Source: Bacteroidota bacterium (GTDB lineage: Bacteria > Bacteroidota > Bacteroidia > B-17B0 > Aurantibacillaceae). Taken from it: DNA of 64,000 bases. How positions within the stretch are numbered: the stretch's first letter is position 1; each line of letters begins with the position of its first letter. The position numbers and the translations under genes were made by a program. Below the pieces are notes generated by a model, which saw only the letters and a program-made list of their open reading frames with translations, did no database searches and had not been told where the DNA came from. The stretch covers positions 124,001 through 188,000 of the forward strand of contig CANFTW010000007.1 in the NCBI GenBank assembly GCA_947450025.1. The letters run 5' to 3'. This document shows, piece by piece, positions 36,263-50,581 of the stretch.

Positions 36263-37306
36263 TTATTTATAGGTAGGTCTATTTAAGCTCTTACCTAGAG
36301 ATTTACCATATCCAGGACTCACGTTAAAACGTAAACTAAATTCAAGTCCCCCTTTAGTTTTTGAAGCACCTGCTAATTGAGAAATGTTTAAATCATAACT
36401 CACACAAAACGCATATTTATCGTATTGAAATAATAAAGATGGAATAACCGCATCTCCAAAACGATAGTAACCACCAATTGCTATAGCACAAGGTTTTTTA
36501 ATTCCGGTGTATACAGATTGATCCTGAATAATATATTTCACTAAACATCCAACATTCATTTCTTTTGATGGACCTTGCTTCATATAAATAAAACTAGGAA
36601 CTAAAGCAATGCCGGTATTTTTAAATCCAATATCAAAATTACCATGTAAGGCATATTTTACAAATTGTCTGTCACCACTATTAACGTATGAATATTTTGG
36701 CATGTTGTAATGGAAAACCGAAAAACCTAAATCAAATTTTGTTCCATCTTGAGCACTAATGTATCGTTCGCTTTTTGCATAATGGTAAGCTAAACCACCA
36801 ACAAAATCACCTTGTAAAAATGAACTACGTGGTGTAGTTTCTCCAGAAGCAATTGTTTCGTCGTAGCTATAGCCATTGTATTGACTTTCCCATTTCAATT
36901 TTGATGCATTAATGGTTCTATAGTTGACACCACCACCAATACCAGCAGATAATTTAGAGTACTGCCCTGTTTTTATAACTGTATTGAAACCTAAATTCAC
37001 TAACAATGAACCTAATGCTGCATCACCAGCTTTGTCGTTATAAACACTTAAGGACATGCCCGTGTAGGCTTTTTTGAGTTTTAAATGTTTTAACGCTCTT
37101 TCCACACTAATCCCGTATGTTTGATATGGGCTTGTGACACTAGCCCATTGATTTTTGTAATTTGCTATCACACGCGTATCAAAAGCCGTGCAGCTCATTG
37201 CTGGATTAATGAGAACAGGCGTTTCATTAAATTGGGAGAAATGAATATCCTGCGCTTTCGTGATCAAAGAAATGAGGATTATATTTGCTAAAATTATTTT
37301 TTTCAT
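36263..37306 (-). CDS. PorP/SprF-family type IX secretion outer-membrane protein
   Basis: 347 residues. The signal peptide (1-18) precedes the family start QDIHFSQFNETPVLINPA, which is diagnostic of PorP/SprF. The rest is a beta barrel with conserved NYKNQWASV and ending SPGYGKSLG. These proteins are needed for, or specific partners of, T9SS type-B cargo. It lies 33 bp downstream of the 1291-residue type-B protein gene, the usual cargo-partner arrangement (as with SprB and SprF in Flavobacterium). Confidence 0.93.
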   Translation of the reverse strand: MKKIILANIILISLITKAQDIHFSQFNETPVLINPAMSCTAFDTRVIANYKNQWASVTSPYQTYGISVERALKHLKLKKAYTGMSLSVYNDKAGDAALGSLLVNLGFNTVIKTGQYSKLSAGIGGGVNYRTINASKLKWESQYNGYSYDETIASGETTPRSSFLQGDFVGGLAYHYAKSERYISAQDGTKFDLGFSVFHYNMPKYSYVNSGDRQFVKYALHGNFDIGFKNTGIALVPSFIYMKQGPSKEMNVGCLVKYIIQDQSVYTGIKKPCAIAIGGYYRFGDAVIPSLLFQYDKYAFCVSYDLNISQLAGASKTKGGLEFSLRFNVSPGYGKSLGKSLNRPTYK

Positions 37307-37339: not shown

Positions 37340-40300
37340 TTATCTAATAAGAGTGATGTTTCCTTTCGTTTTAAATTCTTTACCATCAATAGATACTCCT
37401 TCTGCTTTATAAACAAATACACCAGTATCTAGTTTTTGTCCTCTAAATGTTCCGTCCCAACTATCCGTGAGTGAGGTTGTTTCAAACACTTTTTCTCCCC
37501 AACGATTAAATATTTGAAGTATAAATGTTGAGATACATTTTCCATGAATATTGACCATATCATTTAACCCATCTCCATTTGGAGAGAACGCATTAGGTAC
37601 AAAAAATTCACCACATACAATTTCAACAATGATTGTTACTGTATCCTGAACTCTACAATAAGGTGTGTTAGAAGCTACTACTATATAATTTGTGGTAGAA
37701 GATGGTTGCACAATAGTTGTAGAACATGTAGGGCAGGAAATAGAACCATTTACGTTTGGAGACCAATTATAAGATGTTGCACCCGTTGCATTTGCAAAAA
37801 TGGTAGCGCTTTCTCCAATATTAATGGTTGTATCTCCATAAGCAACTAAAACAGGTAAATCAAATACTTTGATACAATTTGTTTTAACAACAGTATCTGA
37901 TCCACAACCATTTGAGGCAATCATCATCACTGAATAAGTACCTGCAGATGGATAGCAAGCTTGTGGAGTAATACCTACTGAGGACGTTCCTACACCACTG
38001 CCATAATACCATTGATAATTATTTAAATTCCCTCCAGAAGTGGTTGAACTAAAAGTTACACAACCTCCAGCACAAATTGTATCGTTAGTGCTTAGTATGA
38101 AATTGGCAACAGGAGGAGTTGCAATTTGGATCTGAATAGTTTTTGTTCCAACACAAACTCCATTTGAGATGATAACGGAATATGTTACAGGAGCAGAACT
38201 AATTGGAAGTGCTGTAATAGTTGGAGTGTTATTCGAACCTTGAATGGCAGAACTAGGACTCCATGTGTATGTTAATCCTGCAGCGGATGGCGCTGCTGAA
38301 ATGGAAATTGAACTACCAAGGCATGCAGTAGGACTACTAGCTGTTAGGGTAGGTGTAACATTCGCTAATACACTAACTGTAACAACAGATGGCATTAAAA
38401 CGCAACCTTGAGCGCTTACACCAGCAACCGTATAGTTTGTTGTCGTTGATGGACTCACATTTACATTAGGTGTAGACATTGAACCTGGAACCCAAGAATA
38501 TGTATTAGCTCCAGATGCAGTTAATGTAGCAGTTCCACCAACACAAATTAAAGTATTAGCACCGCTAGCCGTTATTGTTCCAATTGGCGCTAAAGCAATT
38601 GAAATAGTTCTAGTAGATGAACATCCATTTAAGGTGCCTGTAACAGAGTATATGGTTGTTGCAGAAACGGTTGCGGTTACCACAGAACCTGAAGTAGAAT
38701 TTAATCCTGTGCTTGGAGACCATGAATAGGTTGCTGCACCACTTCCTGTTAAAGTTACTGGAGTACCTCCTAAACAATAACTTGGAGACGAAGCAGTTAA
38801 TGTCGCGGAAACAGTTGTAACACTAACGGTAGCTGATGCTGAATTAGTACATACACCATTGCTTCCAATTAAAGTATAGGTTGTTGTTGTGATAGGATTA
38901 ACTGTATTATTTGCAAGCGAACTAGATCCAGGTAACCATGTATAGGTTGTTGCACCGTTTGCATTTAGTGTGGTGGATGAACCAATACAAATATTAGTGT
39001 TTGAAGGTGTTATTGATAACGTTAAGGTTGGAGAAATACTAACGGTAGCAATTGCTGTAGTTGTACAGGTTCCTGTTCCGGAAAGTACTGTATAAGTTGT
39101 CGTTGTCGTTGGATTTACGGTAACGGTTCCTGAATTTGTAGGATTTGTTCCACTACTTGCTGTCCAAATGAAAGGTCCTCCACTTGAAACTGTTAATGAG
39201 GTGGATTGACCATTACAAATAATGGTAGAACTTGGTGTTATCGAAATACTAGGAACGGTGTTAATTGAAACGGTAGATACGGCAGATGTTGTGCAAGATC
39301 CTGTACCTGAAATAACTGTATAAGTTGTTGTAGAAGTTGGAGAAACGGTAACATTAGCGACACTTGCAGGATTAGTTCCGCTACTTGCAGTCCATCCAAA
39401 AGGACCTGCTCCAGTTGCAGAAAGAGCAACGCTTTGTCCAACACATATTGCAGAAAAAGTAGGGGTAACCGTAACTTGCACTGCAGGAGATAAATTTACA
39501 GTGGCAGTTGCAGAAGATGTACATGTTCCTATACCTGATACGACAGTGTAGGTTGTTAAAGATGTTGGAGTCACTGTTACGTTTGCGGCACTAGGTGGAT
39601 TTGTTCCACTACTCGCAGTCCAAATAAATGGACCAGAACCTGAAGATGATAAAGAAGCACTTTGTCCTATACAAATAGTTGATGAAGATGGTGTAATCGT
39701 TATAGGAGATGTACTTGAGACATTCACAATAGCAACTGCAGAAGTTGTACAACTTCCTACACCTGATTTTACAGTATATGTAGTCGTGATTGCAGGTGAT
39801 ACAGTTACATTGGCAGCCGCTACTGGAAATACGCCACTACTAGCTACCCAGTTAAATGGCCCAGGTCCACTAGCTGATAATCCAACACTTTGCCCAACGC
39901 ATATGGTTGTAAGTGATGGAGTAACTGCTACAGTAGGAGTTACAGAGACAGAGACGGTCACAACAGTTGAGTTGGTGCAAGTGCCTGATGTTTGAATAAC
40001 AGTATAGGTAGTATTGGATGGTGGGGAGGCCACTACAACTGAACCCGTTGTTGCACTTAAACCCGTAGAAGGGTTCCATGAATAAGAGCCAGTTCCTCCA
40101 GTAGCAGTTAAAGTGGCACTTTGTCCAGAGCAAATAACACCTGTAGGGCTTTTGGTTACTGTAAAAGTACTGATTGGCGCATAGTTAAGCGCAACTGTTG
40201 TTGTTACAGGAAATCCCGGACAAGTATTAATATCAGAATATTTTAATGTGTAAGTTGTTGCAGCTGTTGGATTGGCTGTAACTACAGATCCCGATGTTGC

Positions 40301-41215
40301 AGCTAGTCCTCCAGAAGCCGGGGCGCTCCATGTATAGGTTCCAATTGGTAATCCTCCAGCAGCTGTTAAAGTGACTGTTTGAGCACTGCAGATAGAACTT
40401 GGATTTACAGAGGCTGTAATAGTGGGTTGATTGGCACATGATAATCCGTTAACATCTAAAAACACTCCAGAGTCATATAATCCATCTGTATCATCCCAAA
40501 CACCAATGGTCATAGTGTAGGTTTGACAAGGCGTTACTGATGCAGATGCCGTTAATACAGTAGTGGCACCATCATAAATTAATCCAGGAGGACTATCAAT
40601 ATAATAAGCGCAATTGACACAAGGACCAGTGTTAGTGGAACCATTATTTACATTTTGAATTGATACAACATTCGAAGTGGTTGTTGTGACTGGAAGAGTG
40701 GCGATATTGGTATTTGCATAGGCTGGTCCAGATGGATTAGGACCTGTTAACACAAATCCAAAAGCATCATTAATCGTGCCTGTGGCAAATTCAGGATATT
40801 CTTCAGAAGCAAATACATAATTAATACTAAGGGTGGCGCATGTTGGAGTTAACTGAAAGGTCATATAACAGCCATCAAAGGTAGTTCCGTTAGATAAACT
40901 ATTGCCAAGAGCAGAGCCACCAGCGCCACTACTCACACTAATGAAAGAAGATGGTGGACCTGCAACATTTGTTGCGGATCCCGTTGTTAGCAAAATACCA
41001 GAATTTAAACTTGCATTCCCTAAGGCAGCCGCTCCATTGCCAAATGTGGCATAAGCTCCTGCTGGGCAAGTTAAACTTAAGCCTGTCACCGTTACTCCAT
41101 TTCCTTGCAATAAGGCTTGCATTTGAGCAATGGATGGATTAACAGTTGTTGTAATTTGTCCAAAAGAAATTGAAAACAAACTTGTTAGTAAAATTATTAG
41201 TATGAATTTTTTCAT
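37340..41215 (-). CDS. Giant repeat-containing surface adhesin with choice-of-anchor L domain and T9SS type-B C-terminus
   Basis: 1291 residues. The signal peptide (1-19) is followed by a choice-of-anchor L domain (about 25-260) with LSLTCPAGAYATFGNGAA and VFASEEYPEF. Next come nine Ig/PKD-like modules of about 76 residues, each with an ICxGQS motif, a central Trp and a CT near the end, suggesting one disulfide per module, then a PKD domain (about 1040-1110). The last 90 residues (FVPNAFSPNGDGLNDMVNI ... TGVFVYKAEG) are the gliding-motility-associated type-B sorting domain. The role is probably adhesion or motility at the cell surface. The PorP/SprF gene follows in the same operon. Confidence 0.9.
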   Translation of the reverse strand: MKKFILIILLTSLFSISFGQITTTVNPSIAQMQALLQGNGVTVTGLSLTCPAGAYATFGNGAAALGNASLNSGILLTTGSATNVAGPPSSFISVSSGAGGSALGNSLSNGTTFDGCYMTFQLTPTCATLSINYVFASEEYPEFATGTINDAFGFVLTGPNPSGPAYANTNIATLPVTTTTSNVVSIQNVNNGSTNTGPCVNCAYYIDSPPGLIYDGATTVLTASASVTPCQTYTMTIGVWDDTDGLYDSGVFLDVNGLSCANQPTITASVNPSSICSAQTVTLTAAGGLPIGTYTWSAPASGGLAATSGSVVTANPTAATTYTLKYSDINTCPGFPVTTTVALNYAPISTFTVTKSPTGVICSGQSATLTATGGTGSYSWNPSTGLSATTGSVVVASPPSNTTYTVIQTSGTCTNSTVVTVSVSVTPTVAVTPSLTTICVGQSVGLSASGPGPFNWVASSGVFPVAAANVTVSPAITTTYTVKSGVGSCTTSAVAIVNVSSTSPITITPSSSTICIGQSASLSSSGSGPFIWTASSGTNPPSAANVTVTPTSLTTYTVVSGIGTCTSSATATVNLSPAVQVTVTPTFSAICVGQSVALSATGAGPFGWTASSGTNPASVANVTVSPTSTTTYTVISGTGSCTTSAVSTVSINTVPSISITPSSTIICNGQSTSLTVSSGGPFIWTASSGTNPTNSGTVTVNPTTTTTYTVLSGTGTCTTTAIATVSISPTLTLSITPSNTNICIGSSTTLNANGATTYTWLPGSSSLANNTVNPITTTTYTLIGSNGVCTNSASATVSVTTVSATLTASSPSYCLGGTPVTLTGSGAATYSWSPSTGLNSTSGSVVTATVSATTIYSVTGTLNGCSSTRTISIALAPIGTITASGANTLICVGGTATLTASGANTYSWVPGSMSTPNVNVSPSTTTNYTVAGVSAQGCVLMPSVVTVSVLANVTPTLTASSPTACLGSSISISAAPSAAGLTYTWSPSSAIQGSNNTPTITALPISSAPVTYSVIISNGVCVGTKTIQIQIATPPVANFILSTNDTICAGGCVTFSSTTSGGNLNNYQWYYGSGVGTSSVGITPQACYPSAGTYSVMMIASNGCGSDTVVKTNCIKVFDLPVLVAYGDTTINIGESATIFANATGATSYNWSPNVNGSISCPTCSTTIVQPSSTTNYIVVASNTPYCRVQDTVTIIVEIVCGEFFVPNAFSPNGDGLNDMVNIHGKCISTFILQIFNRWGEKVFETTSLTDSWDGTFRGQKLDTGVFVYKAEGVSIDGKEFKTKGNITLIR
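38492..40330 (-). repeat. Array of about eight tandem Ig-like modules with an exact 228-bp period
   Basis: Using the conserved Trp codon as a ruler, the modules lie at plus-strand positions 40328, 40076, 39848, 39620, 39392, 39164, 38936, 38720 and 38492. Five intervals in a row are exactly 228 bp (76 residues); the first is 252, one is 216 and the last is 228. The four central copies share GPFxWxASSG (GPFIW twice, GPFNW and GPFGW once). Such constancy suggests recent tandem duplication. Confidence 0.85.
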
Positions 41216-44006: not shown

Positions 44007-45482
44007 CTAAAGAAGTGATTCAACTGGAGTACAGACGTTGTTTTCGCAAACAAAACATTTCAATTTATCCTTAAAAATGTATGATTTGTATATTGATTTA
44101 CCTAATAACATGCGTAAACACTCTTGAACGCCTTCAATAATACTTGGATGAGGGTGCATCATATCGGCAAGTTCTCTAATACCTTGATTAGTATGAATTA
44201 AATAGGCAACTGCTTGAATTGCAGAACTGGCGTGTTCGCCAACGGCACGCATACCCAAAATTCTCATGCCATTATCATTGGTTACAATAATTTTAAAGAA
44301 GCCTTTTGTTTTTCTCATTGTAATGGCTCTGGCATTGGTACTATAATCTAGTTTTACCACTTTGTGTGCTAACCCCTTTTTATTACAATCTTGTTCACTC
44401 ATGCCAACACTAGCAACCTCTGGATTTAAAAACATAATGGTGGAAATGTTTTGGTAGGATAATGGTTTAATGGTTGGACCAAACATTCTCACCACGGCAT
44501 GTCTTGCTTCCCTTTCACCAACATTCACTAAAGCCATTTCGGTAGTAACATCACCAGCCACATAAATATTAGAGATGTTTGTTTGTGTATCATCATCCCA
44601 AATACTCCCTCTGTCATTTAATTTCACTCCTGCGTTTTCTAATTTTAATTCTTCTACATTGGCAACCCTTCCTACCGAAACTAATGCTTTTTCAACAGTA
44701 ATAACTTCAGTTAAACCATCCTTATATTCCAATTCATATTCTACTTGTTCATTTTTTATTTCCATTCGTTTTAAAGATGAGCCGTGATGAATGGTAGCGC
44801 CATGTTTTTCTAAACTTTCGCTTATTAATTCAGCAACATCATCGTCTTCAAAAGGTAAAATTCTATCAGCTTTATCAATTAAATACACTTTTGTTTTACC
44901 CATATTTGAAAAGATGGTTGCGAATTCACAACCAATAACTCCTGCTCCTAAAACAACTAGGCTTTTAGGTATTTGACTAATGTTTTTTACTCCATCACTA
45001 GTCATAATAATATGCTCATCAATAGGAATATTTGGAAGGTAGCGTGGACGACTTCCTGTCGCAATGAGAATATGTTCAGCTTGCACTTGCTTTGAAGTTC
45101 CATCTTGTTTTTTAATAAAGATCGTATGTTTATTAATAAACGAAGCAGAACCATTTTCGTAAAAAAATAATCTTGATGGTTGTTCTTCCAGCAAATCTAA
45201 ATGATGAGTCATCTGAGTTTTTCGTTCATGAACAGCTTCTTTTAATGTTTTAACTATATCCTGATAATCGGCATCGTAATTAGGAATCATTTCACGAATA
45301 GAACATACTTTTTGAGAATACTCCCATAATGTTTTTGAAGTTAAAACACCATCATAAACTCCTGCACCACCAATACGATTTTTTTCAATTAATAAAACTT
45401 TTTTCTTAAAGTCTAAAGCTCGCATAGCACCAGCGTATCCGCTAGGACCTCCTCCAATGACTATTAAATCGTACTGTTCCAT
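44007..45482 (-). CDS. FAD-dependent pyridine nucleotide-disulfide oxidoreductase relative lacking both redox-active cysteines
   Basis: 491 residues, built like dihydrolipoyl dehydrogenase or soluble transhydrogenase SthA: FAD motif GGGPSGYAGAM (residues 10-20), NAD motif VLGAGVIGCEFATIF, second FAD motif IYVAGDVT, and the C-terminal active-site block MMHPHPSIIEGVQE with the His-His pair. The redox disulfide GGxCxxxGCxPSK is instead GGAGVYDGVLTSK, with Gly41 and Val46 at the two Cys positions. A unique tail holds Cys476, Cys479 and Cys484 (KCFVCENNVCTPV). The ATG overlaps the stop of the LtaS-like gene by one base, so the two are translationally coupled. Confidence 0.87.
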   Translation of the reverse strand: MEQYDLIVIGGGPSGYAGAMRALDFKKKVLLIEKNRIGGAGVYDGVLTSKTLWEYSQKVCSIREMIPNYDADYQDIVKTLKEAVHERKTQMTHHLDLLEEQPSRLFFYENGSASFINKHTIFIKKQDGTSKQVQAEHILIATGSRPRYLPNIPIDEHIIMTSDGVKNISQIPKSLVVLGAGVIGCEFATIFSNMGKTKVYLIDKADRILPFEDDDVAELISESLEKHGATIHHGSSLKRMEIKNEQVEYELEYKDGLTEVITVEKALVSVGRVANVEELKLENAGVKLNDRGSIWDDDTQTNISNIYVAGDVTTEMALVNVGEREARHAVVRMFGPTIKPLSYQNISTIMFLNPEVASVGMSEQDCNKKGLAHKVVKLDYSTNARAITMRKTKGFFKIIVTNDNGMRILGMRAVGEHASSAIQAVAYLIHTNQGIRELADMMHPHPSIIEGVQECLRMLLGKSIYKSYIFKDKLKCFVCENNVCTPVESLL

Positions 45483-47383
45483 TATTTCTTAGTTTTATGA
45501 ATGTAATTAACCTTATTGTCAATTAAATCATTTGTGTAATTTTGAATATAAGCTTTACAGAAATTAAGAACTTCTAAATCCTTTTGAGTTTTTATGAGAT
45601 TATTTTTCAATAGACTGTCTTTTTTGAAATTATATTTTTCAATGAGTTTAAAATCACTTAATACATATAATAAACTATCTGTGATTGCACAGTAATTTGG
45701 ACTCATGTAATAGATACAAGGTTGTTTACTATTAGATAACATACTTTTTCCTAATGAATAATATGGCTTATCAAAATTTAAGTAATCTAATACAGTTGGT
45801 AATATATCAATTTGCTGCACAGTTTTTTCATCAATTGAAGCAGTCATCCCTTGTTTATATATTAAGATTGGAATAGAATATTGCCCTACTGTATTAGAAT
45901 AAAAGTGGTCGTTTGAAATACTTGAATGGTCGGATGTAATAACAAATAATGTGTTTTTGAACCAAATTTGTTTACTTGCATTTTTAAAAAATTGTTTTAA
46001 GGCATAGTCGGCATAACCTATAGATTCTGTTATTTCGTAATTTCCTTTTGGAAATTTTCCACGATATTTTTCTGGTACTTTATATGGATTGTGAGAACTG
46101 AGCGTAAATATTGATGTAAAAAAAGGCTGTTTTAAACTTGAAATTTCTTGCACACTTTTTTGTAAAAAAGGTTCATCCCAAATGCCCCATTGTCCATCAT
46201 AATCTTTATCATTGTTGTATTCGGTACGCCCATAATATTTGTCGTACCCAGCAAGCTCAGCAAATGAATTGAAATTAAGCGTACCGTTAGTACCTCCATG
46301 AAAGAAAACAGAATGATATCCTTTTTCTCTTAGTAAGTTAGGGAGCGTTTGTAAATTGTTATTACAATATAGTGAGTTTAAGTAATGGTTTTCTAAATAA
46401 CATGGCATCGAGGCAATTACAGCAGGAATTCCATTGATAGAAGTTTTATCATTGGCAATCGCATTTGGAAAAACAAGTGATTTAGACATTAAGCTATCTA
46501 AAAATGGAGTATAACTAACTCGCTTTCCGATAGCCGTAAATTCTTTAGAAAAACTCTCTAAAATAATCACACAAACATTTAGTCTTTTAAATTCTCCAGT
46601 GTCTGGTGCATGAATGGGCGTATATGTTTTTTCAAGCTGTTCTTGGCTTAATAAATGTAAGGGCTCTAATTGATTTAAGTCGGCTGATTTTAAAAATGAA
46701 AATGGTGTGTTAAGGAGTATAGAAACATATTTTGGTTTGGCGTAGTTGTTGGCATCTAATAAAACAATAGGTCGTTCAGATAATCCGCCTCTTATTCCTA
46801 AAACGGTAGTTGTAACTAGCAATAAAAAAATAAGGCTATAAATACTGAGATTTTTTATACTAAAATCAACTAACTCTTTTTGTTCTGTTTTTCGGATTTT
46901 GAAATGAAATTTTATGAAAAGCCAAATAAAAATAACAAAGACCAATAAGATATACCAATATTGCAAAATGAAGTGTGGTAATAGTTTTGTGAATTCTGTT
47001 TGTCCACCAAAGACCATTTGACTTACTTCAAAAGTGGTTCTTTTTTTTGTAAATGGAAAGTAAGCAAAATCTATAAAATTCAAGGATAGCGCAATAGAAT
47101 TTGTAACGATAAAAATAATGGAAGTTGTTTTTTGATACCATTTTGAATAATAAAACTTAAATGGTAATGAACAAAGGAGGATATACAAAGCATTTGTTGC
47201 CGAAATACTAAAGGCGTCAAATTTTAATCCAAAAAACATAAGTGAAACTAATTCACCGAAACCAAGGTCTTGAAAGGCAGAATAGTTAAATGCAAAAAAT
47301 AATAATCTACAAATAGCATACAGTAAAAATATAAATGCAATTTGTTTTAGTAAATGAATAATTTGTGATTGATAGGACGTCAT
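45482..47383 (-). CDS. LTA synthase-like (MdoB/alkaline-phosphatase fold) phosphotransferase
   Basis: 633 residues. Five N-terminal membrane segments (to about residue 200) and a periplasmic sulfatase/alkaline-phosphatase domain. Metal and nucleophile residues: Glu276 in VIILESFSKEF, Thr314 in NDKTSINGIPAVIASMP, and the DH pair in FVITSDHSS. This matches LtaS, MdoB and related enzymes that transfer phosphoglycerol or phosphoethanolamine from phospholipids. Bacteroidota have no classical LTA, so the acceptor is more likely a glycan or lipid A type molecule (inference). It lies 3 bp after the M1 peptidase-barrel gene and one base over the oxidoreductase gene. Confidence 0.88.
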   Translation of the reverse strand: MTSYQSQIIHLLKQIAFIFLLYAICRLLFFAFNYSAFQDLGFGELVSLMFFGLKFDAFSISATNALYILLCSLPFKFYYSKWYQKTTSIIFIVTNSIALSLNFIDFAYFPFTKKRTTFEVSQMVFGGQTEFTKLLPHFILQYWYILLVFVIFIWLFIKFHFKIRKTEQKELVDFSIKNLSIYSLIFLLLVTTTVLGIRGGLSERPIVLLDANNYAKPKYVSILLNTPFSFLKSADLNQLEPLHLLSQEQLEKTYTPIHAPDTGEFKRLNVCVIILESFSKEFTAIGKRVSYTPFLDSLMSKSLVFPNAIANDKTSINGIPAVIASMPCYLENHYLNSLYCNNNLQTLPNLLREKGYHSVFFHGGTNGTLNFNSFAELAGYDKYYGRTEYNNDKDYDGQWGIWDEPFLQKSVQEISSLKQPFFTSIFTLSSHNPYKVPEKYRGKFPKGNYEITESIGYADYALKQFFKNASKQIWFKNTLFVITSDHSSISNDHFYSNTVGQYSIPILIYKQGMTASIDEKTVQQIDILPTVLDYLNFDKPYYSLGKSMLSNSKQPCIYYMSPNYCAITDSLLYVLSDFKLIEKYNFKKDSLLKNNLIKTQKDLEVLNFCKAYIQNYTNDLIDNKVNYIHKTKK

Positions 47384-47386
47384 ATA

Positions 47387-50300
47387 CTAAAAAGCTCTAT
47401 TGATACCAATCATCCAGCGCGTTTGCAAATAATCTTTTTCAGCATACGGTAAACGATTAATAAAGAATGGCATATCTAAACGAATAGTTAATGGTTTTAA
47501 ACCAGTTAAAGGTCCCCATTTTTGAATACTCACTGCAACACCAACGCCGGCATCTATTATTAAGTTTGACATCACAGTAGCTTTATTTGGTGCATTTGTA
47601 TTAATGGTTCCTGCATCTCCAAAGAGATAGGGGTTTATCTTTATAGTATTATTTAATTTTTTGATATTCATAAAACTAAATAATTCTCCAAATTCAATTT
47701 CAGCACTTGCAGAAGCTCCAGTAGTTCCTTTGTAATTATATACCACAAATCCATTAGCATCTGTAGAAGCTAAAACATAACCAGAGTAACCTCTTAAATT
47801 TAAGCCTCCACCAGAGGTGAAATGATTAGTGGTTGTTCCATATTTTCCCCAACTAGGCGGAATAAAACCATTAGAGCGTGTGTATTTATTGTCCATTAAG
47901 TCTTCTGGATTTGAACCTGATGCAAATAACATCGATTCATCAGCTAATAGAGTTCCAAAACCTAGTTGAGCAAAAACTCTAGTATTAATATTTATTTTAC
48001 CTAGGTCATTTTTATTAATGGCCGTATATTGAATATTGGAGTAATCATAATCTCTAGTTAAGGCGCTAGCTCTCATGTTTAAATTCATAGAACCATTTCC
48101 TCTGTTATAATTGTAATTATGATCTATCCCAACATTTAAATAACTATTCATTTTTTGAATTTGCCACTCGCTTTGATTAATTAGATAAACTAAGTCATTT
48201 GGTAAATCTCTCACCATTGCTTTGTATTGAATATAAATTCGATTCTTTTCGTTGTTACTCTTTTTTTCAAAACCAATTAATCCACTTTCTAATCCATCTA
48301 AAGATTTTAAAGTCATGTAGATATTTGATTTTTTAATAAACTTAGCGGTTGATGTTTTGTAGTTTAATAAAAAGGAAATAGTGTTGTAGCTATTTTTTTT
48401 AGTCGTTGAATCTAAATATGCTTGACCTAATCCTGTGCTAAACCATGCGGTAATATCAAAAACATGTTTGGTGTTCATATAACCTCCATTTAAATGAGCA
48501 CCTACTTTTATTCCATCAAATCCATTATACCATAAACTTGGGCGAGCTTTTAATTCATAGTGTTTCCAATCCAACGGATTATAAATTTTTGAATCAAAGG
48601 CAATATTTATTTTTTGATGTTTAACATTATTCATCATGTCTACATCTGCTAAACGACGAGAAGGATCAATAATCACATTTTTTATTTTTCCATTTAATTG
48701 TACTTTAGCCACATACTTTGGCTTTACTTTTCCCCAACCAATCCATCGAGGCAATACATTTGATTTAACCGGTTTTTCGAACCATGTATTAGGGATATGA
48801 TACATGTAGGCTGAATCGTTTTTGTCAATGACTGCAAAATCGATTGGCATTTGCATATCGCCTTTGCGTTTAAATTTAATAAAATATTCTCCTTTTTGTT
48901 TTCCTTTTTTTATAGTCCCAACTTTGTAGTCAATTTTTTTTGTGGTTTCTAGCCATTGATCAAAAAACCAATTTAAATCAACGCCACTATATTGTATGAT
49001 GGAGTTTCTAAAATCTTCGGGATAGGGATGAGCAAATTTCCACTGATTAAAATAGTGCTGCATACATTTATCAAATAATGAACGTCCTAGAACGTATTCT
49101 AAATTTTTGAGCATCGCGGCTGTTTTTGTATATACAGCGCTATATCCTCCTCCATGACGAATACCTCCATTATAATCATCACTGTGTGTATTTAGTGTTA
49201 CTTCTTCTCCTCGAACAGTGACTGAATTCATATAGCCATTATATATCTGGTCATCTAATATTCTATTTTGTTCAGTGAAACGGCGAACGTATTTACTTTT
49301 TGGTTGTTGTTCAATTTTATTTGGTCCATCAATAAACTGATAAGTGTCGGCTGTGTAAAATTGTGTAAACCCTTCATCTAAAAAGGCACGATAAGTTTCA
49401 TTGTTTCCAACCATCCCAAAAAACCAATTATGAGTCATTTCATGAACTAATAAATCTCTATAGTTAGGATCATAACCGCCATCTAAAGTTAACATAGGGT
49501 ATTCAACACCATCTTGTGCATCGGCGCAAATCATTTTAGGGTAGTGGTAGGGGCCGATATTATAAGTGTTTACTTCTAATACTTTGGCTATATATTGCGG
49601 GCATGTTTGCCAGCCTGCAGCATGTGGTTCTTGAACTAAAGCCACACATTTAATACCTTGCCACATATATTCTCCAATACGGTAAGTAGGGTCAGCAGTT
49701 AAAGCGAAATCATGAACGTTTAAGGCAGAGAACTTCCATGTTTTGTTCGTTCCATCACGTTTAATAATATTACTTGGTGCTGAATTCCAAGGTTTCTTAG
49801 AGAAGTTAGAAATATCTAAACGCTGACGTAAAGAATCAGGTAAAACCTCTTTTTCATTTTGTAATACACCAGTTGCATCTAATACATAATGGTTTGGTAA
49901 AGTAAATTCCACATAAAAAGAACCAAAGTCACCATAAAATTCATGATCCATATGTTGATCTGTATCCCAACCAAATTTTCTGTCGTAAACAGAAATACGA
50001 GGATACCAGTGTGTGACATCATAATGTTTATTACCAAACGCATTAAATAGTTTCATGCGATTACGAATCACTTCTTTGGCATAATACGTTTTAAAGTCTA
50101 AATCAAATGTTATGGATTCGCCTGGTTTTAATGGATGGTCGAGGAATACTTTCATGACCGTGTTATCTAACTCAGTTTTTAATTCGGTCGTTCCATGTTT
50201 GATGTTTATGACTTCAGTACCTTTTCCATCGTTTCGGTATTTGTTAAACTTTAAATGGTAATTGTTATTCTTGTATAAATCAGCTAGATAAGAATCTTTA

Positions 50301-50581
50301 GTTTGTGCGTTATTGTATAAGTGAAAATAGACAAAGTATAATTCTTTTGGAGAGTTGTTCCAGTAAGTTAACTCTTCATGCCCCGAAATAATATCGGTTG
50401 AATCATTTAGGGTCGCCTTAATGGTGTAATGCACATCTTGTTGCCAATAGTCGGCAAACGGTTTTCTATTTTTCCAATACAGAGGATTTGTTTGAGATCG
50501 ATAATCGATATATTCATTTTGAGAAGATAGTTCGGTAATTGAAATAATGCCCAAAATTAGGAGTAAGCTTAGTTTCTTCAT
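47387..50581 (-). CDS. M1-family metallopeptidase fused to an Omp85-like outer-membrane barrel
   Basis: 1064 residues, about 400 longer than a plain periplasmic M1 peptidase. The signal peptide is about residues 1-20. The peptidase domain has HEMTH (His380, Glu381, His384), the third ligand Glu403 in AFLDEGFTQF, and DGVEYPML as the GAMEN-equivalent. From about residue 660 to the end the sequence is amphipathic beta: SLWYNGFDGIKVGAHLNGG, the loop motif LRGYSGY (Arg930), FGDAG (Asp989) and a terminal RWMIGINRAF ending in Phe. The RGY and DAG positions (134 and 75 residues from the end) fit an Omp85 barrel. First gene of a tight three-gene operon. Confidence 0.85.
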   Translation of the reverse strand: MKKLSLLLILGIISITELSSQNEYIDYRSQTNPLYWKNRKPFADYWQQDVHYTIKATLNDSTDIISGHEELTYWNNSPKELYFVYFHLYNNAQTKDSYLADLYKNNNYHLKFNKYRNDGKGTEVINIKHGTTELKTELDNTVMKVFLDHPLKPGESITFDLDFKTYYAKEVIRNRMKLFNAFGNKHYDVTHWYPRISVYDRKFGWDTDQHMDHEFYGDFGSFYVEFTLPNHYVLDATGVLQNEKEVLPDSLRQRLDISNFSKKPWNSAPSNIIKRDGTNKTWKFSALNVHDFALTADPTYRIGEYMWQGIKCVALVQEPHAAGWQTCPQYIAKVLEVNTYNIGPYHYPKMICADAQDGVEYPMLTLDGGYDPNYRDLLVHEMTHNWFFGMVGNNETYRAFLDEGFTQFYTADTYQFIDGPNKIEQQPKSKYVRRFTEQNRILDDQIYNGYMNSVTVRGEEVTLNTHSDDYNGGIRHGGGYSAVYTKTAAMLKNLEYVLGRSLFDKCMQHYFNQWKFAHPYPEDFRNSIIQYSGVDLNWFFDQWLETTKKIDYKVGTIKKGKQKGEYFIKFKRKGDMQMPIDFAVIDKNDSAYMYHIPNTWFEKPVKSNVLPRWIGWGKVKPKYVAKVQLNGKIKNVIIDPSRRLADVDMMNNVKHQKINIAFDSKIYNPLDWKHYELKARPSLWYNGFDGIKVGAHLNGGYMNTKHVFDITAWFSTGLGQAYLDSTTKKNSYNTISFLLNYKTSTAKFIKKSNIYMTLKSLDGLESGLIGFEKKSNNEKNRIYIQYKAMVRDLPNDLVYLINQSEWQIQKMNSYLNVGIDHNYNYNRGNGSMNLNMRASALTRDYDYSNIQYTAINKNDLGKININTRVFAQLGFGTLLADESMLFASGSNPEDLMDNKYTRSNGFIPPSWGKYGTTTNHFTSGGGLNLRGYSGYVLASTDANGFVVYNYKGTTGASASAEIEFGELFSFMNIKKLNNTIKINPYLFGDAGTINTNAPNKATVMSNLIIDAGVGVAVSIQKWGPLTGLKPLTIRLDMPFFINRLPYAEKDYLQTRWMIGINRAF

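Follow-up and report, generated by a model that had tools for sequence, protein, structure and literature searches.

A single gene in a 64,000-nucleotide stretch of a Bacteroidota genome encodes a 1064-residue protein in which an M1 metallopeptidase is followed by a predicted 16-stranded outer-membrane barrel of the Omp85 type. The stretch, hereafter the window, covers positions 124001-188000 of contig CANFTW010000007.1 (assembly GCA_947450025.1; 3.2 Mb in 28 contigs). The fused arrangement and the catalytic residues of the peptidase are conserved among relatives, and predicted structures, fold searches, the places of the motifs and profile comparisons together lend strong support to reading the C-terminal half as an Omp85-like barrel. 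We consider that the protein is probably a periplasmic M1 aminopeptidase anchored to the outer membrane by an Omp85-derived barrel scaffold.

The fused gene and its peptidase half

The first-pass annotation had read the open reading frame as a complete M1 peptidase, with catalytic residues H380, E381, H384 and E403, joined to an Omp85-like barrel. The 1064-residue frame and the four residues were found as described there. A search of the order with the whole protein as query covered the 70 genomes returned (all of one family label, completeness at least 85), and every one of them gave a match. In 58 of the 70 there is a single match that starts at or before residue 19 and ends at residue 1063 (counted by hand from the listing), and the fusion is therefore not an assembly artefact. 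The orthologue is in pieces or cut in another 11 genomes (hand count), which makes it present in 69 of 70; the remaining genome, G001, gives weaker, paralogue-level matches only (best E 7.1e-38). Relatives were collected from named genome contigs, in which 545 matching stretches were confirmed. The best 80 of these share 46-91% identity with the query; all carry titles of metagenome-assembled genomes, and all but one, titled Azovibrio (L185), bear Bacteroidota names. Conservation was read from an alignment of 75 proteins, the query plus 74 of these best 80.

Pfam places Peptidase_M1 (PF01433) at residues 375-543 (E 2e-15), with one further, insignificant match to Calycin_like (E 0.68); NCBIfam returns aminopeptidase models only, far under their cut-offs. 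The catalytic domain contains G358-V-E360-Y, H380-E381-x-x-H384, E403 and Y484, and thus the HExxH-x18-E zinc site, the catalytic Tyr and the Glu of a GxMEN-like motif by which M1 enzymes are recognized. H380, E381, H384, E403, E360 and Y484 are identical in 75/75 aligned proteins. Judged by its sequence, the M1 half would bind zinc and act as an aminopeptidase.

An AlphaFold2 model of the full protein (mean predicted local distance difference test score, pLDDT, 87.5; predicted template modelling score, pTM, 0.82) consists of a beta-rich N-terminal part, a mostly helical catalytic part, an all-beta segment at residues 552-640 and then strands. The fold of both halves is predicted with high confidence, and the whole-chain pTM of 0.82 suggests that peptidase and barrel are docked rather than loosely linked. 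With the full-length model, Foldseek and VIA-align list M1 chains only; VIA-align gives Z 28.2 to tricorn-interacting factor F3 (1z1w) and Z 26.7 to both leukotriene A4 (LTA4) hydrolase (5ni4) and Deinococcus M1 (6iff).

At the extreme N-terminus, Gln occupies the column of residue 21, the end of a signal-peptide-like segment, in 67/75 aligned rows, and a Cys is found somewhere within residues 15-28 in 7/75. Inspection of the 1064-residue protein revealed no lipobox Cys, for which reason a lipoprotein reading was dropped. A reading as cargo of the type IX secretion system was also dropped, since the C-terminus is the barrel.

The C-terminal barrel and its relation to Omp85 proteins

Because searches with the full-length model list M1 chains only, the barrel was also modelled alone. 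For residues 655-1064, AlphaFold2 returned pLDDT 87.0, pTM 0.82 and strands nearly identical to those of the full model, 16 by DSSP. The predicted strands are 675-686, 690-701, 705-715, 735-744, 752-761, 764-774, 780-790 and 812-825 (strands 1-8) and 828-839, 848-859, 864-875, 955-963, 980-994, 1008-1019, 1031-1041 and 1057-1060 (strands 9-16, the last one short). The loop that connects strands 11 and 12 contains two more short beta stretches (937-940 and 946-949). The amphipathic nature of this region, noted in the first-pass annotation, is borne out by an alternation score of 3.07 (on a hydropathy scale in which we gave Trp and Tyr higher values), compared to 1.30 +/- 0.24 in 2000 within-strand shuffles, none of which scored as high.

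Foldseek comparison of the barrel model with the PDB gave 95 matches at E <= 0.001, the best being 4c00 (E 1.9e-8), and 50/50 of the matches listed are TamA, BamA or BAM entries. With VIA-align, 49 of 50 listed matches are titled SAM, BAM/BamA or TamA; the exception, 5ayw, bears the title 'Structure of a membrane complex' and is presumably a BAM entry. The VIA-align matches range from Z 19.5 to 17.3, with root-mean-square deviations (rmsd) of 3.9-5.9 over 273-314 residues. The best is 9nk7 (Z 19.5, rmsd 4.0, 299 residues), and both F. johnsoniae BamAP (9n2e, Z 18.6) and P. gingivalis BAM (9hjm, Z 18.0) are among them.

The barrel had originally been proposed from an LRGY and a GDAG motif and a terminal Phe. 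R930 of LRGY indeed lies 134 residues from the end and D989 of GDAG 75 residues from it, and F1064 is the last residue. The loop between strands 11 and 12, at the position of Omp85 loop 6, is 79 residues long and contains RGY at 930-932. R930, E961, F987, D989, G991, R1034, D1036, P1038 and F1064 are identical in all 75 aligned proteins; within the loop-6 motif, G931 is kept in 74/75, residue 932 is Tyr or Phe in 75/75 and residue 929 is Met in 11/75. Strand alternation makes E961 (strand 12) and D989 (strand 13) face the lumen. In BamA, acidic strand residues partner the loop-6 Arg. Loop 6 is better conserved than strands 1-11 (residues 675-875), the mean column entropies being 1.45 and 1.96 bits, respectively. 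Inward and outward barrel residues showed no clear difference in conservation (p 0.11). An LRGY in loop 6 is also reported for F. johnsoniae BamA (PMC12611786). Since invariant residues are found in the peptidase and in the barrel, both halves are under constraint.

No POTRA domain was detected: residues 552-662 are predicted to be all beta with one 4-residue helix and without the POTRA helices (AlphaFold2), and no POTRA family matches (Pfam). We therefore file the protein as an Omp85-type barrel fusion and not as a canonical Omp85 protein; the barrel itself belongs with Omp85.

Profiles were compared with hhalign, whose probabilities are given here as scores. A profile of close-family barrels scored 87.4% against 31 Omp85 barrels, with controls at 0.3% (FadL, 13 sequences) and 3.8% (PorP, 30 sequences). 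When stand-alone and distant barrels were added, the score to Omp85 was 95.1%. A 43-sequence broad profile scored 96.9% to Omp85 over 151 columns, with FadL at 0.4%, PorP at 1.1% and reversed Omp85 at 0.1%; across the close and broader sets all FadL, PorP and reversed-Omp85 controls fall within 0.1-3.8%. In the broad-profile alignment, Omp85 counterparts exist for R-G-Y, the strand-12 E, F-x-D-A-G, A/S-G-x-G and the terminal F of the query.

Table 1. Features of the fusion gene, in window coordinates
Feature	Residues	Coordinates	Strand	Basis or remark
M1 peptidase–Omp85-type barrel fusion, whole open reading frame, stop included	1-1064	47387..50581	-	1064 aa
Sec signal-peptide-like N-terminus	1-21, ends Q21	50519..50581	-	judged by eye
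M1 N-terminal beta domain	~46-210	49952..50446	-	AlphaFold2 strands; fold alignments to M1 chains begin at residues 43-48; approximate border
M1 catalytic domain	~211-550	48932..49951	-	PF01433, fold alignment, conservation; borders approximate
All-beta domain at M1 domain III position, between catalytic domain and barrel	552-640	48662..48928	-	AlphaFold2 secondary structure; no POTRA pattern
Predicted 16-stranded Omp85-type outer-membrane barrel	675-1064	47390..48559	-	AlphaFold2, fold search, profile comparison
Loop between strands 11 and 12 (Omp85 loop-6 position), holds L929-R930-G931-Y932	876-954	47720..47956	-	AlphaFold2, alignment
FGDAG in strand 13; alternation points D989 towards the lumen	987-991	47609..47623	-	AlphaFold2, alignment

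Distribution, paralogues and gene neighbourhood

Used alone as a query, the barrel matches 60 of 392 genomes of the phylum, and a 29-row barrel profile matches 123 of 392. Two main forms are seen: stand-alone barrels of ~400-470 residues, mostly of one family label (f25), and fusions of ~990-1200 residues. When 12 distant loci were fetched, 11 proved to carry a long open reading frame with HExxH, the twelfth (L074) being cut by the contig end. Pfam analysis of nine proteins identified PF01433 in five of five distant fusions. Twenty further loci were hand-picked from the matches of the 29-row profile and scanned with M1 and barrel models built in this analysis; 17 hold 18 open reading frames that match both, and no frame with both matches was found in the other three (L298, L299 and L300). 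By hand count the fusion occurs in 20 family labels of the phylum, that of the window included (one of them, f22, by a partial barrel match only). A tree was built from 52 barrels, 24 of them fused and 28 stand-alone, and a single branch with support 100/100 divides the two sets; the tree program warns of long branches. Because one branch separates the two forms, there may have been a single origin.

The stand-alone barrels (L035-L062, e.g. L036:1405-2589; ~400-470 residues) could be 'noNterm' Omp85 proteins missed by Pfam; the only one scanned, L035, matched 0 Pfam families. Several of them adjoin genes that by eye are acetate kinase- or NUDIX hydrolase-like. Two unusual fusion loci were also noted. 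L285:1256-6061 encodes a 1602-residue fusion with ~590 residues ahead of the M1 domain that have no Pfam match at E <= 0.1, and at L282:1015-7637 two different M1-barrel fusion genes adjoin.

Two more M1 proteins of the source genome match, L002 (1022 residues; L002:1435-4503) and L003 (789 residues). Relatives of L002 (L246-L275) are found in 65 of the 70 genomes of the order (hand count, pieces included). The C-terminus of the L002 set (30 sequences) scores 94.4% to the broad barrel profile and 1.9-10.8% with narrow ones; because of the former match, the source genome probably has two M1-barrel fusions, L002 being the second. The RGY motif was not seen in L002 by eye.

Propeller-Omp85 proteins (L114, L115, L116 and L298) are likewise long, ~1070-1120 residues, with an Omp85-like C-terminus (compare the WD40 class of PMC4104836). 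PF01103, the Pfam Omp85 family, is above its cut-off in L114 and L115 and below it in L116 (2689-5988), and L298 (815-4165) matches the barrel profile. They differ from the fusion in having propeller-type matches (L114, L116, L298) and no HExxH. By eye, the N-terminal part of L114-L116 resembles a degenerate gluzincin without HExxH.

The neighbourhood of the gene was surveyed in 80 loci, many of them cut by contig ends, with neighbours in the window named by eye. On its downstream side the fusion gene is separated by 3 bases from a sulfatase/phosphoglycerol-transferase-like gene (by eye; 45482-47383, minus strand). A relative of the sulfatase-like gene follows the fusion gene in 4/80 loci, and a dihydrolipoamide-dehydrogenase-like neighbour is present in 5/80, in both cases all among the five nearest. 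An MqnA-like neighbour occurs in 3/80 loci, including the distant L153, and a gene for a pyridoxal-phosphate enzyme in 2/80, including L170. The commonest other neighbour cluster (18/80 loci) is a large secreted-looking protein encoded on either strand, followed by a NadC-like one (by eye; 13/80). No common partner gene was detected across the 80 loci. Elsewhere in the window, a PorP/SprF-family match lies at 36326-37261 (minus strand), one of 17 such matches in the genome, and is adjoined by a 1291-residue open reading frame at 37340-41215.

Alternative readings, proposed function and known systems

Several results weigh against assigning the barrel to Omp85. PF01103 has no match at E <= 5 in the whole protein or in residues 628-1064, and 0/75 barrel sequences match it at E <= 0.01; over these 75, Pfam yields two stray matches of one member each, and the four PF01103 proteins of the source genome do not include the fusion. 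The Foldseek template modelling scores by query length are moderate (0.37-0.49), and the broad-profile match spans only about strands 10-16. Eleven single distant fusions compared with Omp85 score 0.2-69%, two of them above 50%, and a literal (I/L/V/M)RG(Y/F/W) is absent from the barrel in 8/11 and 12/18 distant fusions. The last strand is short and weak, with pLDDT ~50 for the last four residues in the full model, and closure of the barrel is a prediction. If the C-terminal half were some other beta domain, either a different outer-membrane barrel or a soluble sandwich, the missing Pfam match would be accounted for, as would the result with the narrow stand-alone barrel set, which by itself scores 57% to Omp85 and 41% to PorP (narrow profiles are noisy). 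We regard this as highly improbable, given that the fold matches listed are Omp85 proteins, that the broad profile selects Omp85 while no control exceeds 1.1% and that the motifs lie where loop 6 and strand 13 would have them. Since most distant fusions lack the literal motif, it characterizes this subfamily and a small number of others, not the whole family. The failure of Pfam to detect any of the 75 barrels marks a blind spot of profile annotation.

Loops that follow odd strands average 19.8 residues and turns that follow even strands 6.9. With 16 strands, both barrel ends should be on the same side, and the long odd-strand loops and short even-strand turns would therefore put the N-terminal peptidase on the periplasmic side. 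We propose that the M1 zinc aminopeptidase is exported to the periplasm and that the Omp85-derived 16-stranded barrel directly attached to it would cross the outer membrane. The barrel would mainly be a scaffold, holding the peptidase against the inner side of this membrane, as proposed for PlpD, a patatin-like Omp85 protein of Pseudomonas aeruginosa. Peptides or proteins arriving there would have their N-termini trimmed by the peptidase.

The first-pass annotation had offered two functions, an outer-membrane-anchored aminopeptidase, which fits, and a type-Vd-like exporter of its own protease domain, which gained no positive support. The topology and the PlpD precedent are the reasons to favour the periplasmic anchored peptidase over self-export, a lesser rival that we think decidedly unlikely. 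Its domain order, enzyme N-terminal and Omp85 barrel C-terminal, is that for which PlpD was once proposed as an export system (PMC4104836), but the patatin domain of PlpD, earlier thought to be exported, is reported in PMC11116518 to reside exclusively in the periplasm. Self-export would also have to move an M1 module of ~600 residues that is predicted to be folded. No POTRA was detected between this module and strand 1, so the type Vd order enzyme-POTRA-barrel is not seen in the fusion, and the loop lengths place the N-terminus on the periplasmic side. The main rival, in our judgement rather unlikely, is a coupled machine: the barrel would actively translocate or insert proteins, or let peptides in as a pore, and M1, at the place of the POTRAs, would process what passes. 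Conservation of loop-6 R930, E961 and D989 in 75/75, the higher conservation of loop 6 than of strands 1-11 and the presence of the orthologue in 69/70 genomes of the order agree with such a machine. No POTRA domain and no recurrent partner gene were found, however; the conservation of inward residues does not clearly exceed that of outward ones (p 0.11), and the PlpD authors propose that an Omp85 scaffold was reused for an enzyme (PMC11116518). The literal loop-6 motif is missing from many distant fusions, a loss that would fit a scaffold better than a working translocase. A specific version, in which M1 replaced the POTRAs of an active Omp85 pore and trims N-termini during insertion or import, also seems unlikely to us; if true, the protein would be a core envelope device of many Bacteroidota, seen by profile libraries as an M1 peptidase only.

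All Omp85 proteins studied before PlpD are described as assembling or translocating proteins (PMC11116518). The M1-barrel fusion suggests that the Omp85-type scaffold has been turned to another use, keeping an enzyme at the cell envelope. As its enzyme is unrelated to that of PlpD and has no detectable POTRA beside it, the fusion would be a second case and would show that the scaffold was reused on more than one occasion. It also provides a testable enzyme at the Bacteroidota outer membrane.

M1 aminopeptidases such as tricorn-interacting factor F3, LTA4 hydrolase, ERAP1 and Deinococcus M1 have the same N-terminal beta, catalytic and following beta domains and the same active-site residues. 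ERAP1-type enzymes carry a helical C-terminal domain, in place of which the fusion has a membrane barrel. Another difference is in the GxMEN-like motif, which here reads G-V/M-E-Y, the Asn being replaced by Tyr in 75/75 aligned proteins. With BamA, TamA and SAM50 the fusion shares the predicted 16-stranded barrel, and this subfamily also the loop-6 RGY, the acidic residues of strands 12 and 13 and the C-terminal Phe; those proteins have POTRA domains and function in outer-membrane protein insertion and assembly, whereas here there is a peptidase and no POTRA was found.

PlpD, formerly type Vd, likewise combines an N-terminal enzyme and a C-terminal 16-stranded Omp85 barrel in one protein, with the enzyme side reported as periplasmic; for the M1-barrel fusion this side is predicted. 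The fusion differs in carrying an M1 zinc peptidase as its enzyme, with no POTRA detected ahead of the barrel. PlpD forms a homodimer; the fusion was modelled as a single chain.

PF00149, presumably a family of calcineurin-like metallophosphoesterases and not of peptidases, has no match in the fusion at E <= 5 (Pfam), which carries PF01433. It is the N-terminal metal-dependent domain on the Omp85 barrel of the 'Metallo' subfamily (Heinz and Lithgow 2014, PMC4104836), for which the authors discuss periplasmic proteolysis or export. That study distinguishes ten Omp85 subfamilies, one of which ('noNterm') has no N-terminal extension, and 'Metallo' is not among the main clusters that it lists as having predicted POTRAs. 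Neither PMC4104836 nor PMC4827864 uses the word 'peptidase' in its main text. The first-pass annotation knew of no described M1-Omp85 fusion, and we found none in the literature searched, which excluded most subscription journals and all bioRxiv preprints. Enzymes carried by an Omp85-type barrel are a known kind of protein, of which the M1 fusion appears to be a new form.

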